Source: Porticoccaceae bacterium
GTDB taxonomy: Bacteria; Pseudomonadota; Gammaproteobacteria; Pseudomonadales; GM7GCV1
Reading direction: 5' to 3'
Length of the DNA stretch: 47,643 nucleotides
NCBI GenBank assembly: GCA_018662305.1
Contig: JABJGI010000057.1
Span: forward strand, 1-47,643
Each line of letters begins with the position of its first letter. Positions within the stretch are counted from its first letter, which is position 1. Of this stretch, positions 26,075-31,934 are shown one piece after another. Position numbers and translations under genes: made by a program. The notes below the pieces were generated by a model. It searched no databases, was not told the origin of the DNA, and saw nothing but the letters and a program-made list of their open reading frames with translations.

Positions 26075-28000
26075 TTATTTTTCGGTGTGCGTATATACGC
26101 CATCCCAATTCTCTGGTGACTCCGACTTAAATTTTTCTATTCTGCTCAAGTAGAGTTGATAAAGCTTTTCTTCGGGTAGCCTTTCGGATAAGAGACCAAA
26201 GCAATGCTCCGCTTTATCCCAGTCTGCTTTTAAGTAAGCCTTGGATGCATTTTGGTGCAGCGTAACGATTTCAGAGTTACAGAGCTTGTCGTTTTCATTT
26301 AGGGGCTGATAGATGTCTATAGCTTCTCGTTTGCCCTTAGCTCTTATGCGGTCGATCCAACGGAACTGAAACCGGTCGGCCTTATCCCGAACTGCTTTAT
26401 TTACCAATATGGGTACTTGATAAAACTTGGTTAGGCTTTCTAATCTCGCGCAGGTGTTTACCGAGTCGCCAATCACTGAATAATTTAGGCGGTTTTCAGA
26501 ACCCATGTTACCCACTACCGCTGTACCCGAAGCAATACCGATACCGAATTCGATTCCTGCGGCGATTATATTTTCAGGTTCATTATCTGTAGAGCGGCCG
26601 TAGTTTTCTCTAAGCTGCAGGGCCGCAGAGACGGCTCTAGTTTCCTCTTCGCCATGTTTTACTGGAGCACCAAAGAGCGCCATGACCGCATCACCCATAT
26701 ATTTATCAATGACTCCTCGTTCAGACTCGATAACTTTTGCGGCTTCAGAAAAGAAATTGTTTAGTCCAGCCAGTACCGCTTTGGGAGGCTGTGATTCGCA
26801 GAGTTGCGTGAAGTTGCGGATATCGCAGAAAAGCACAGTTAGTTCTTTTTCTTCACCGCCCAACTCAATTTTGTTTTCCAGCAGTTCACTGGCTATTTCT
26901 TCCGAAACGACTTTTCCTAGAAGGTTTCGCACACGCTCTTTGTCTTCCAGGCCCTCCGCCATTTCATTAAATGCCTGTCCGAGTTGTCCTAGCTCGTCCG
27001 ACGAAGTTGTCTCTACTCGGAGTGAGAGGTCACCACTGCGAATAGATTGAACACCTTTGGTTAGTGCCTGCACGGGTGCACTGACAGATCGGGCCAGAGT
27101 GAGCGCACCAATTGCTGAAATAAGGAGTCCGCCGCCAAATATTAGATAGAGAGAGCGATTTAGCCGCTCGTAGGGGGCCAATGCTTGACCCAGGTTTCCG
27201 TGCAATGCGACATATACCTGCATGTCTGAGCCTGTTTCCAGTCGCTGCAATCGGCTCAAATAGGGAGTACCGTCAAGATTGGTTTCCAACGAAGTTTGAT
27301 CCATCTCTATCAGGTTGGGCAGAAGGCTAGAGAAGCTGGATTGTTGACCGTCATTCAAGGTAGATGAGCTAATTCTCCAGTTTCCGTCGAACACCGCGAT
27401 AGAGACATCTGTTTGAGTAATTTCCTTAGTAGACAAAACAAACTGGTCACCAATTGGGAAGCCGATCACCACCCAGCCCTGGGGGTTGGGAATAAGCAAA
27501 GGGCTTGTGATCAACTGATATGGCGCCTGTTCTGTTGCCACTATTCCGGAAGATTCGTATTCGTCGGACTCAAAGGCTTTGTCTGTCAGCCACTGGGTTG
27601 GAATATCTTCTGGATTGATAAAGTCCGGTGCGGTTTTCGCAATGGGCTCGAGATTTAGATCGGTGAGAAGCATTAGATCTGCCGGGACGTAGCGGATACG
27701 GCCCAGCAGGTTACGCATCGCTGATTCAAGCGTGGGCATATGGCCATCAATAAAAGTCGTGCGAAAGGCATGATCACTGGTGGCGGGGCGAACCACATCA
27801 AAAAGGGAGCTAGTGCGACCTTGCAGCAGAGAATTAAAGGTTTCTTCAGTTGTAGCCAGATCAGCCATTACGCTTTGCAGCGCGTTGCGGGTATTTTCCC
27901 GGTTGACCAGAATAAATGTACTGACCAGCGTGACAATTAGCAGCCCAGATACCAGTAAGGCAATACGGGCGCTAAAACTTTGGAATCCCCCAGGTAGCAA
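26075..28000 (-). CDS. Membrane class III adenylate cyclase with extracytoplasmic sensor region and HAMP
   Basis: Two TM segments flanking about 230 aa, HAMP (ARSVSAPVQALTKGVQSIRSGDLSLRVETTSSDELGQLGQAFNEMAEGL), catalytic ELTVLFCDIRNFTQLCE, GVIDKYMGDAVMALFGAP, NYSVIGDSVNTCARLE. Confidence 0.92.
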   Translation of the reverse strand: MLPGGFQSFSARIALLVSGLLIVTLVSTFILVNRENTRNALQSVMADLATTEETFNSLLQGRTSSLFDVVRPATSDHAFRTTFIDGHMPTLESAMRNLLGRIRYVPADLMLLTDLNLEPIAKTAPDFINPEDIPTQWLTDKAFESDEYESSGIVATEQAPYQLITSPLLIPNPQGWVVIGFPIGDQFVLSTKEITQTDVSIAVFDGNWRISSSTLNDGQQSSFSSLLPNLIEMDQTSLETNLDGTPYLSRLQRLETGSDMQVYVALHGNLGQALAPYERLNRSLYLIFGGGLLISAIGALTLARSVSAPVQALTKGVQSIRSGDLSLRVETTSSDELGQLGQAFNEMAEGLEDKERVRNLLGKVVSEEIASELLENKIELGGEEKELTVLFCDIRNFTQLCESQPPKAVLAGLNNFFSEAAKVIESERGVIDKYMGDAVMALFGAPVKHGEEETRAVSAALQLRENYGRSTDNEPENIIAAGIEFGIGIASGTAVVGNMGSENRLNYSVIGDSVNTCARLESLTKFYQVPILVNKAVRDKADRFQFRWIDRIRAKGKREAIDIYQPLNENDKLCNSEIVTLHQNASKAYLKADWDKAEHCFGLLSERLPEEKLYQLYLSRIEKFKSESPENWDGVYTHTEK

Positions 28001-28027
28001 GATTAAATCTCGGCAGTTGGGAAGCCG

Positions 28028-28678
28028 TTAAAAATAGCCGCCACCGGAAGATCCTCTTCTTGGAAAAAATAGTCGTGCAGTGTTTAGCTGGTAACTTCCG
28101 GAGAAGCTCAAGTCTTCTCCTATAGATATTTGGATGGGCTCAAGCTGTTGATCTTTTTCTGGATGCCAGATACTCAATTCGTAGTCGCCGGTTTCGCTAA
28201 GACTAATTTCCAGCTGGCCCTGTGAATCCGAAACGCTGAAGTAGGGGCTATCCGAAACTAAAATGTACCCCCGCATTTGGTCATGAATATTGCAGCCCAG
28301 TACCACCAGACCGGACTGATCAAATCGAATGGGCTCTGATGGAGTCCCAGAATAGAGTGGAATATCAAACTGTTTTGCCTCGGAAAAAGAATAGACGTGA
28401 TGGCGGATCTGATCCTGGTTTGGAAAATATATATTTGATCCGGTTTGCACCACTTTTACTCGAGGGAAAAACTGCTCATTAATTTGCTCAACTTCTGCAT
28501 CTGTTGGAGCACCAGCATCGAACTCGAATTTGGGGGTAATCACAGCGGTAGCATCTGCCAGTGGATCACCGTTTTGGTCAGTGATTTGTATTACAACATC
28601 TGCATGGGTCATGGGTAGACCAAGCATGATTATCAAAATCGGGATTGATACTGAGTGTTTGCAGATTGTTGAAATCAT
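28028..28678 (-). CDS. Periplasmic cupredoxin-like protein ('methylamine utilization protein'-type)
   Basis: Signal peptide; IRHHVYSFS and GCNIHDQMRGYI resemble type 1 copper His/Cys-His-Met ligands; ATG at 28678 overlaps the upstream stop codon (TGATG). Confidence 0.72.
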   Translation of the reverse strand: MISTICKHSVSIPILIIMLGLPMTHADVVIQITDQNGDPLADATAVITPKFEFDAGAPTDAEVEQINEQFFPRVKVVQTGSNIYFPNQDQIRHHVYSFSEAKQFDIPLYSGTPSEPIRFDQSGLVVLGCNIHDQMRGYILVSDSPYFSVSDSQGQLEISLSETGDYELSIWHPEKDQQLEPIQISIGEDLSFSGSYQLNTARLFFPRRGSSGGGYF

Positions 28679-29580
28679 CAAAATCTCTTTGAGAGAGAAA
28701 AGTTAGTTATATTTTGACCATAGCCGTTCCCTTCGTCGGCATCAACTAGAGTGCGCTGAAATCTAAAACTAGCTTCAAGGCTGTCAGAAAACACATGGGT
28801 AAAGGAAAGTGCCAAAACACTTCCCTGACCCTGATAACGGTAGTTGTAGTAGGTGCTTCCACAGACATCATCCTGACTAGCTGCACTGGCATAGGCAGAC
28901 AAACCTGAGCTAGGTAAAGCCATTGAGCTAAATTCACCTTTGATATAAGTGGTATCCAATGCCAGATAGCTATTTGGAGTCATCGCCCACTCGCCACCTA
29001 GATGCAGTTGGGTGTTCTGAATCGAAGTTGGGTTATCGCTTCCCCATACCCATCCAGGCTCGCCCGATTCAATTGGGATCCGATCTTCAGCTTCAAACCG
29101 GTAGTACAAAACATTGGCATTGATGGCGATCCGATCCGAAATATTCTTTGAATATTGAATTTTGGGCGCAATGCTCCACCCGCTCCGAATTTCGGATGCC
29201 GAGTTGCGGTACTGCATTCCTAAGGACGCAGATATGCGAGGCTTGTCGAAACCTAAACCTAGCTTTCTTACATAGCCAATTTGAGTCGACAGCTCGGTTC
29301 TATCTAAATTTGAGTAGACATCGTATTTGGTGAGTGCGAGATCTGATGCATAGAAGAATCCACTTCCCGGCTCTCGCTCGTAATAGCCCTGTGCAGAGAG
29401 TCGAGCCTGAACCCCGTAATCGTTCATGTGGTCAGTGCGTGCAAGGCCGATATTGGTGTTGTTGAAAGTCGAAATTTCCAGGCTGTGGGGCTTATGCTGA
29501 GCGAGCGTAGGAACTGCACCTAAGATCATTAAAATGATCAAGGTGATTCGAGCGTCCTTTTTCAGCTGTCGCAGATTCAT
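28678..29580 (-). CDS. Predicted outer-membrane beta-barrel protein of unknown function
   Basis: Signal peptide MNLRQLKKDARITLIILMILGAVPTLAQ; alternating beta-strand pattern ending in aromatic residue (ITNFSLSKRF); ORF track starts at 29619 but ATG 29580 gives a cleaner signal peptide. Confidence 0.68.
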   Translation of the reverse strand: MNLRQLKKDARITLIILMILGAVPTLAQHKPHSLEISTFNNTNIGLARTDHMNDYGVQARLSAQGYYEREPGSGFFYASDLALTKYDVYSNLDRTELSTQIGYVRKLGLGFDKPRISASLGMQYRNSASEIRSGWSIAPKIQYSKNISDRIAINANVLYYRFEAEDRIPIESGEPGWVWGSDNPTSIQNTQLHLGGEWAMTPNSYLALDTTYIKGEFSSMALPSSGLSAYASAASQDDVCGSTYYNYRYQGQGSVLALSFTHVFSDSLEASFRFQRTLVDADEGNGYGQNITNFSLSKRF

Positions 29581-29763
29581 TGAAGAAAAGCCAAGAAATT
29601 TAATTAGTGTTTGTGACAATCTTACCGGAAATAACGAGTGATTAGCCTCAATACTTCATGCTGTTAATTGGGCCGTATTGAAAAGAATTCTTGGGAGAGT
29701 TTCGCGACTGAGTTCAGTATTCACTACAATGACCCTTCGGGGGAATTTATTACAGGTATAGCT

Positions 29764-30432
29764 ATGTCAGATAATAAGAAACTCATTTGGGATATCCCAA
29801 CTCGCCTTTTTCACTGGGGAATAGTGATCACCCTAGGTTATTCGTGGTATTCCATTTCGATAGAGGGGAATCTTGACCATCACTTCTTGTCGGGCTACAT
29901 CGCAACCGGCTTGATTATTTTTCGTGTGATTTGGGGCTTTGTCGGCTCCCGTTACGCGAGGTTTGGCAGCTTTATCTACAAGCCTTCAGAGTTAGGCGCT
30001 TACCTTAAATCCTTCTTTAGCAGAGAGGGTGGCAAGTACGCGGGGCACAATCCCTTGGGGGCTATTTCGGTGTTTGCGCTGTTGCTGGTCATCCTCTTTC
30101 AGGCTGTCACTGGAATGTTCGCAGACGATGAATACTATTACTTTGCTCCACTCAACCAGTTTGTTTCTAGTGGCACCGCCGGTCAGCTAACGGAGCTTCA
30201 TAAAGCCAACGTTAATGTAATTATAGGTCTGGCGGTTCTTCATATCGTTGCGATACTTTTCTATTGGTTGTACAAGAAAGAAAAGTTGATAATTGCCATG
30301 ATTACTGGAAAAAAATCTGACGAGCAGGGTAGATATGAAGCCATTCCAAACTCTCGTCTACCCATCGCCATCGCCATCGGGATTGGTGTTGTCATTGCGG
30401 GAATACTTTATTACGTAGTGAATCACCTTTAG
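29764..30432 (+). CDS. Cytochrome b561 family protein
   Basis: KLIWDIPTRLFHWGIVITLGYSW, GLIIFRVIWGFVGSRYARF, His-containing TM helices; ATG at 29764 preferred over 29668. Confidence 0.88.
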   Translation: MSDNKKLIWDIPTRLFHWGIVITLGYSWYSISIEGNLDHHFLSGYIATGLIIFRVIWGFVGSRYARFGSFIYKPSELGAYLKSFFSREGGKYAGHNPLGAISVFALLLVILFQAVTGMFADDEYYYFAPLNQFVSSGTAGQLTELHKANVNVIIGLAVLHIVAILFYWLYKKEKLIIAMITGKKSDEQGRYEAIPNSRLPIAIAIGIGVVIAGILYYVVNHL

Positions 30433-30454
30433 ATATTGGAGAGAACTTTAGGCA

Positions 30455-30487
30455 TTAAAAAAGGGGCTATTGAAGCCCCTTTTTTAA
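30455..30487. terminator. Bidirectional intrinsic terminator between convergent cytochrome genes
   Basis: Perfect 14-bp stem TTAAAAAAGGGGCT-attga-AGCCCCTTTTTTAA. Confidence 0.9.
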
Positions 30488-30502
30488 TCGGTCAGCACTC
30501 AA

Positions 30503-30955
30503 CTAGTTGGCGCGCTGTTTATAGTCTCTATGGCAACCACCGCAATTAGTGCCGCCGAATTGGCGTGGATCGTAGTCGTCCATATCGCCTGAGTCCGCTA
30601 ATGCCTGTGCGGCATCTCTTAGAACCATGGCTTTTTCGCCGAAATCTTCAAAGTCTTCCCAAATTGATGGGAGCGCAAGAGAATTTTCAGGGATGTTATC
30701 TTGGATCTGGAAACCATCTGTGATCATTTCTGAAAGGTAAGCGATCTCTGCAGCAGCTTCCTGAAATGCGGCTTGGTCTCCTGCGGCTTTGGCAGCAGGG
30801 AGCCTGGAAGCTTTATAGGAGATTACGCGAAAAAGGCTGTCTCTGTAGACATACTCTTGCTCTTCCGGAGAAACTTGTCCCTGTGCATGCACTAAGCCTA
30901 GTGTCATTGTTAATGCAATGGCACCGGTGAGCACTAATTTAAAAATATTCTTCAT
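30503..30955 (-). CDS. Cytochrome c' family protein
   Basis: Signal peptide and single C-terminal haem site CGGCHRDYKQR. Confidence 0.87.
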   Translation of the reverse strand: MKNIFKLVLTGAIALTMTLGLVHAQGQVSPEEQEYVYRDSLFRVISYKASRLPAAKAAGDQAAFQEAAAEIAYLSEMITDGFQIQDNIPENSLALPSIWEDFEDFGEKAMVLRDAAQALADSGDMDDYDPRQFGGTNCGGCHRDYKQRAN

Positions 30956-31086: not shown

Positions 31087-31512
31087 TTAACTGACTGGTT
31101 TGAGCGGCTGAAGGAAGCGGTGAATAGTTATGCCCGCGACCATGCTGAGCACGAAGAGAATGGTATTGGGTTCCAGATAAATTAATGCTGTTAATGCGGG
31201 GCCAGGGCAATAGCCAAATAAGCCCCATCCTATTCCGAATATAGCGGAGCCAGAGAGGAGTTTCCTGTCGATAACCTGGTTGTTTGGCAGATCAATGGGA
31301 CATTCGATAAAACTGAATTTTCGATTACGCATAAGCCTAAATGAAAAGATGCTGACCGCCAGAGCCCCTGCCATTACAAAAGCTAGGTCGTAGTCCCAAT
31401 CGCCAAATATATCCAGAAACCCAAGTACTTTATGTGTATCGGTCATACCGGAATAGGCTAGGCCGAAACCAAATAGCACTCCCGCGAGCAAAGCTGAAAG
31501 GTGGTGTTTCAA
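31087..31512 (-). CDS. YeeE/YedE family half-transporter (PmpB-like)
   Basis: LSALLAGVLFGFGLAYSGMTDTHKVLGFLDIFGDWD...FGIGWGLFGYCPGPALTAL; TTG start at 31512 overlapping the upstream TGA. Confidence 0.82.
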   Translation of the reverse strand: MKHHLSALLAGVLFGFGLAYSGMTDTHKVLGFLDIFGDWDYDLAFVMAGALAVSIFSFRLMRNRKFSFIECPIDLPNNQVIDRKLLSGSAIFGIGWGLFGYCPGPALTALIYLEPNTILFVLSMVAGITIHRFLQPLKPVS

Positions 31513-31934
31513 ATAACAGCTCCAATCATTTTGATAAGGGCGACTGTCGTCATGCCAGAGGCAATGAAGCAAAGTGTTGCTGCAATCGAACGTTTCGAAA
31601 GCCGCGCGATGCCGCAAATGCCATGGCCGCTAGTGCAACCTGAACCCAACCGAACTCCGTAGCCCACAATTAGGCCTCCTGCAATGGCTAACCAGGGGCT
31701 ATTAATTGCGAGTTCTGGAGAGGGCTTGCCGGTAAATAGATGGCAGAGGAAGCCCCCGAACAAGAGACCCCCGAGAAATAGAATCCGCCATAATCTGTCG
31801 CCGCTGTTGAATAGGGCTCCATTTAGAATGCCGCTAATTCCGGCGATTCGGCCGGAGAGTAAAATCAAGATGCTCGCCGAAACACCAATAATTAACCCAC
31901 CGATTAAAGCTTGTATCAAGGACTCATCAAGCAT
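31509..31934 (-). CDS. YeeE/YedE family half-transporter (PmpA-like)
   Basis: LIGGLIIGVSASILILLSGRIAGISGILNG...VGYGVRLGSGCTSGHGICGIARLSKRS. Confidence 0.85.
   Translation of the reverse strand: MLDESLIQALIGGLIIGVSASILILLSGRIAGISGILNGALFNSGDRLWRILFLGGLLFGGFLCHLFTGKPSPELAINSPWLAIAGGLIVGYGVRLGSGCTSGHGICGIARLSKRSIAATLCFIASGMTTVALIKMIGAVI

Follow-up and report, generated by a model that had tools for sequence, protein, structure and literature searches.

A predicted cupredoxin paired with a periplasmic sensor of exchangeable output: a candidate envelope signalling cassette in a Porticoccaceae bacterium and other bacteria

The window analysed here is a stretch of 47,643 nucleotides belonging to the 2.2 Mb draft genome of a Porticoccaceae bacterium. 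Open reading frame calls place a packed minus-strand series at 26075-29580, beginning with a predicted outer-membrane barrel (BAR), continuing with a cupredoxin-like protein (CUP) and ending with a class III cyclase (Table 1). The initial annotation had described three minus-strand genes packed in this order, and all three reading frames were found where it had placed them. The TGATG overlap that it reported between the first two genes is borne out as well, the A of the cupredoxin ATG (28678) being the A of the barrel TGA, and so is the close spacing of about 30 bp ahead of the third gene, with 27 bp between the cupredoxin stop (28028) and the probable cyclase start (28000). Promoter and terminator scans returned nothing above shuffled sequence. 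The whole arrangement is kept in the nearest relative found, a metagenome-assembled genome labelled Cellvibrionales (the sister genome, locus L028), where the barrel reading frame lies in two pieces (L028:6577-7522) through frameshift, decay or assembly error. Upstream of the barrel, the window holds a cytochrome b561 gene (plus strand) and a cytochrome c'-like gene (minus strand) at 29704-30955; both were considered as members of the module and rejected, being conserved only in the sister genome. Beyond them, at 31087-31934, two genes of YeeE/YedE type (Sulf_transp and DUF6691) overlap.

Table 1. Features of the barrel, cupredoxin and cyclase genes, in window positions
Feature	Coordinates	Strand	Basis
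BAR, predicted outer-membrane beta-barrel, 300 aa, signal peptide	28678..29580	-	ATG 29580, stop ends 28678; ORF
CUP, secreted cupredoxin-like protein, 216 aa from ATG	28028..28678	-	ORF, homologue alignment, fold model
His93 codon, predicted first type 1 copper ligand	28400..28402	-	Invariant in 39 homologues
Ligand-loop codons Cys129-x2-His132-x2-Met135, amicyanin spacing	28274..28294	-	Invariant in 39 homologues; aligned with amicyanin, NirK
Transmembrane sensor - HAMP - class III adenylate cyclase, 641 aa	26075..28000	-	ORF, Pfam; TTG start probable
Periplasmic double-Cache sensor region, residues about 34-282	27155..27901	-	Alignment, model, dCache fold matches including LuxQ
HAMP domain, residues 302-353	26942..27097	-	Pfam
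Class III cyclase catalytic domain, residues 385-559	26324..26848	-	Pfam; Asp393, Lys433, Asp437, Ser508, Asn515, Arg519

Neither the barrel nor the cupredoxin has a Pfam match above threshold, and NCBIfam holds no family for either. The motif HHVYSF...CNIHDQM, proposed at the outset to contain possible copper ligands, occurs exactly as written, and its first His, Cys, second His and Met, the ligand set of a type 1 site, are invariant across an alignment of 39 diverse homologues. The product is a protein with a complete predicted type 1 (blue) copper site; a missing metal site, which the initial annotation held would count against its proposal, is not what we find, all four predicted ligands being present. 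A structural model (pLDDT 89.9), one of the checks first suggested for this protein, gave a predicted type 1 cupredoxin fold that matches NirK, pseudoazurin and amicyanin, and a profile of the family matches NirK and amicyanin at sequence level too. In fold, in the four ligands and in the CxxHxxM loop, whose spacing is that of amicyanin, the protein resembles these type 1 domains, but unlike them its cupredoxin domain (about residues 51-144) is nested in, and interrupts, a CarboxypepD_reg-like (prealbumin-like) domain, and it is linked to a signalling sensor rather than to methylamine dehydrogenase. Once the two flanks are joined, PF13620 matches them without a break; of the five proteins tried, four score above the curated cut-off and the window protein falls below it (29.4 against 32.3 bits). 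We know of no described cupredoxin with this nested architecture.

The third gene had been read as a membrane class III cyclase with a HAMP domain, and this reading holds: a sensor region between two transmembrane segments is followed by Pfam matches to HAMP (1.5e-16) and Guanylate_cyc (3.2e-19; 69.7 bits against a cut-off of 21.9). Modelling of the sensor, likewise proposed as a check, predicts a double Cache fold between two transmembrane helices (pLDDT 93.1) that matches Cache domains of chemoreceptors and kinases; among the matches listed, the periplasmic domain of LuxQ ranks first by target TM-score (0.65). We class the window sensor only as dCache-like, though its modelled fold is a double Cache, because it scores 14.5 bits against dCache_3 (PF14827), below the curated cut-off of 25.7; its homologues at loci L128, L132 and L135 score above that cut-off. 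In the cyclase domain the canonical catalytic residues are all present (Asp393 and Asp437 for metal, Lys433 for substrate, Asn515 and Arg519 for the transition state), and Ser508 occupies the position of the OaPAC Thr. Judged from these residues the active site is intact, with cAMP the predicted product. In catalytic domain and residues the enzyme is like other class III adenylate cyclases that carry HAMP and a periplasmic sensor, the nearest being cyanobacterial Cya2/CyaB1, OaPAC and Pseudomonas CyaB; unlike those, it takes its input from a periplasmic sensor of dCache type that has a cupredoxin encoded next to it. Because the genome encodes four other PF00211 matches and five cNMP-binding proteins, and has no class I cyclase, cAMP signalling in this bacterium is plausible and does not hang on this gene alone.

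To see how far the arrangement extends, we turn to related loci. A pattern scan of bacterial genome contigs for the cupredoxin yielded 388 confirmed relatives, of which 80 were kept, mostly from beta- and gammaproteobacteria with some from Acidobacteriota. In almost every one of these 80 loci, the gene that comes next encodes a membrane protein with a periplasmic region that is a homologue of the window's sensor. Because that set was chosen by similarity to the window, we also searched 369 gammaproteobacterial genomes with cupredoxin and sensor profiles independently. Among sensors detected at E < 1e-10, 32 of 40 adjoin a cupredoxin, with 47-196 bp between the aligned segments in 29 of these 32 pairs; the other eight have no cupredoxin within reach, and some of them lie on short contigs. 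Looked at from the other side, 19 of the 20 best cupredoxins (> 190 bits) adjoin a sensor, against four of the 20 tallied at 100-190 bits, which marks out a definable cupredoxin subfamily that belongs with this sensor. The two proteins co-occur far beyond chance. The full triple of barrel, cupredoxin and cyclase also recurs in other bacterial families, so the initial proposal does not founder, as it might have, on an association confined to close relatives.

What the sensor is attached to varies. The family is fused to GGDEF-EAL at 102 loci, to a class III cyclase at 13, to a Ser/Thr kinase at four and to a histidine kinase at one (examples confirmed with Pfam). These counts are not independent: the window is among them, its sister is entered under two locus names, and many of the betaproteobacteria in them are related. 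On the sensor tree the output types are strongly clustered, and at least three output changes are needed; cyclase-bearing sensors occur in several families of gamma- and betaproteobacteria. A single origin of the cyclase output was suggested by a quick tree and is not adopted here: the result depends on rooting, L133 stands apart, and an AU test does not reject one clade. Nor is a cupredoxin tree congruent with output type supported, the cyclase-linked cupredoxins being ungrouped and the tree poorly resolved. The conserved core is the cupredoxin together with the periplasmic sensor domain, and the cyclase is not essential to the cassette. The suggestion of an envelope-to-cAMP unit is accordingly retained in part: a recurring envelope-to-second-messenger unit is what we observe, and specificity for cAMP is not, since most relatives carry c-di-GMP enzymes and some carry kinases.

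The outer-membrane barrel is likewise an exchangeable part, drawn from several families, that often accompanies the cupredoxin and sensor. For BAR itself, the barrel nature is suggested at the level of sequence only, by weak matches of its relatives to OMP_b-brl, DUF2490 and MtrB_PioB. Members of this family adjoin the cupredoxin with a cyclase output in the window, the sister genome (L028), L032 and L128, and with a GGDEF-EAL output in L135, L136 and L137; in L035 they adjoin it where the sensor is absent. The five best BAR matches class-wide all adjoin a cupredoxin, and the weaker homologues (< 150 bits) of the gammaproteobacterial survey lie away from any cupredoxin of this family. Elsewhere BAR is replaced by a second porin-like family (POR, 410-450 aa, with weak similarity to Porin P and BBP2), among other places at L129, which has a cyclase, and at L130, which has the histidine kinase; six of the seven strong POR matches in the class survey adjoin a cupredoxin. 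Other partners in this position are a DUF3034 protein followed by a truncated-globin lipoprotein, or a DUF4394 protein; roughly one c-di-GMP locus in four lacks every recognised accessory family in the stretch examined. No homology between BAR and DUF3034 was found (hhalign probability 2.8%).

The pair of DUF3034 barrel-like protein and truncated-globin lipoprotein recurs beside the cupredoxin with or without a sensor, at L030:8271-9704 and many other loci. In a comparison of five relatives, a truncated globin was confined to the genomes that have the cassette. The only such gene of the window genome (G000:C156:1484-1777) is interrupted by a TGA; it is intact in the sister genome and absent from three other relatives. 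We considered it as a hidden partner of the cassette and rejected it, as it is not a lipoprotein, is of a different type and is interrupted by a stop.

Because the cupredoxin and the sensor stay constant while outputs and outer-membrane partners change, the best explanation is that these two form the sensing unit, and we consider it very probable that they are one functional unit. The closest working precedent, by analogy, is LuxP-LuxQ, the Vibrio AI-2 receptor, in which a soluble partner is likewise encoded beside a double-Cache membrane sensor; unlike LuxP, which is of the sugar-binding type, the partner here is a cupredoxin, the output is a cyclase, GGDEF-EAL or kinase, and we claim no common descent beyond the Cache fold. 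On this model the cupredoxin would be the periplasmic partner of the Cache domain, contacting it as LuxP does LuxQ, and its docking would vary with its copper state (oxidised or reduced, loaded or empty); HAMP would relay the change to the cyclase dimer, altering cAMP, to which one or more of the cNMP-binding proteins of the genome could respond. Since the cupredoxin is paired with a sensor fused to second-messenger enzymes, periplasmic copper or redox state may feed such signalling. We judge it somewhat probable that the sensor takes its signal from the copper or redox state of the cupredoxin; for the whole reading, in which the locus represents one version of a modular cassette for envelope signalling with the cupredoxin as Cache partner and that state as its signal, the chances appear about even. 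Against this reading stand the eight surveyed sensors with no cupredoxin in reach, the c-di-GMP loci that lack a recognised accessory gene, the usual role of type 1 cupredoxins as electron carriers, and the cupredoxin tree, which, poorly resolved as it is, does not follow the output type.

Between the two kinds of signal, we prefer redox state to copper concentration because four-ligand type 1 sites bind copper tightly and normally serve electron transfer, and because many cassettes carry a truncated-globin lipoprotein, a heme protein. Redox in particular is nonetheless put forward tentatively. With similar caution, we suggest as a possibility that the blue-copper protein serves one Cache sensor family, whose outputs (cAMP, c-di-GMP, Ser/Thr or His phosphorylation) are interchangeable, as its dedicated redox co-receptor, with a barrel and often a periplasmic globin upstream.

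The main rival to the redox reading is a sensor of copper availability, in which the apo or loaded cupredoxin would report periplasmic copper, the barrel would admit copper or a chelate, and the enzyme would adjust lifestyle. The tight hold of four-ligand type 1 sites on their copper speaks against it, as do the surroundings of the cassettes: genes for a copper transporter, oxidase or chaperone were not recognised there in the locus maps and two annotated regions. In its favour are the complete predicted copper site and a precedent in PA14_37690, a GGDEF-EAL protein with a copper-binding CHASE4 domain (PMC13277305). We regard this rival as rather unlikely but still a serious contender. What PA14_37690 shares with this candidate reading of the window cassette is a one-component second-messenger enzyme that takes copper in the periplasm as its input; PA14_37690 differs in that the copper sits on the sensor domain itself, and a cupredoxin is unmentioned in the main text of that paper (PMC13277305).

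Alternatively, the cupredoxin and barrel may work on their own account in electron transfer or uptake at the envelope, merely co-expressed with, or controlled by, the sensor without being its input. Type 1 cupredoxins are usually plain electron carriers, relatives without a sensor exist at L035, L036, L037, L039 and L041, and pairing is sparse among the cupredoxins of 100-190 bits (four of 20, as above). Within the close subfamily, however, pairing is nearly obligatory while all else nearby changes, and we consider this explanation unlikely. Least probable by far is a role in methylamine utilisation as an amicyanin: the RefSeq name and the amicyanin-type ligand loop would fit, but the methylamine dehydrogenase light chain is absent from the window genome and its sister and present in only two of the ten cassette genomes searched (the window's included), and no mau genes are among the annotated neighbours on two plasmids.

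The absence of methylamine dehydrogenase from the window genome makes the RefSeq/NCBI name misleading. In RefSeq the cupredoxin is entered as 'methylamine utilization protein' and the protein encoded next to it as 'EAL domain-containing protein'; operons that combine these two with DUF3034 and group 1 truncated hemoglobin are the same cassette with c-di-GMP output, from which the window differs in its cyclase output and its other barrel. No functional description of those operons was found. As most relatives, some of them on plasmids, go by the methylamine name, their link to second-messenger enzymes is hidden. A survey of betaproteobacterial copper proteins lists only general plastocyanin/azurin and cupredoxin families (PMC6769254), and by term search its main text leaves GGDEF, EAL, globin and methylamine unmentioned (PMC6769254). 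The open-access literature searched contained nothing relevant on a cupredoxin with EAL, diguanylate cyclase or Cache, nor on DUF3034, and no description of the cassette, in keeping with the initial view of an undescribed candidate; because that literature leaves out most subscription papers, novelty is provisional. Apparently, then, the cassette is widespread and undescribed. Its parts are each of a known kind, and what appears to be new is a blue-copper protein as the standing partner of an output-swapping Cache sensor.

With the cassette, many orphan EAL-domain proteins acquire a probable partner in the periplasm. If these sensors are gated by the blue-copper protein, cAMP and c-di-GMP would be coupled directly to the redox or copper state of the periplasm, and the domains already exchanged in nature would serve as ready-made reporters of such gating. 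Should the redox co-receptor reading be true, it would add a widespread and so far undescribed class of redox signalling at the bacterial envelope. The c-di-GMP cassette with DUF3034 and group 1 truncated hemoglobin is also found on the Caballeronia plasmid pSBC2-4 (L178) and the Novosphingobium plasmid pABRDHK22 (L179); one of these plasmids is typed as mobilizable, and one host is an alphaproteobacterium.
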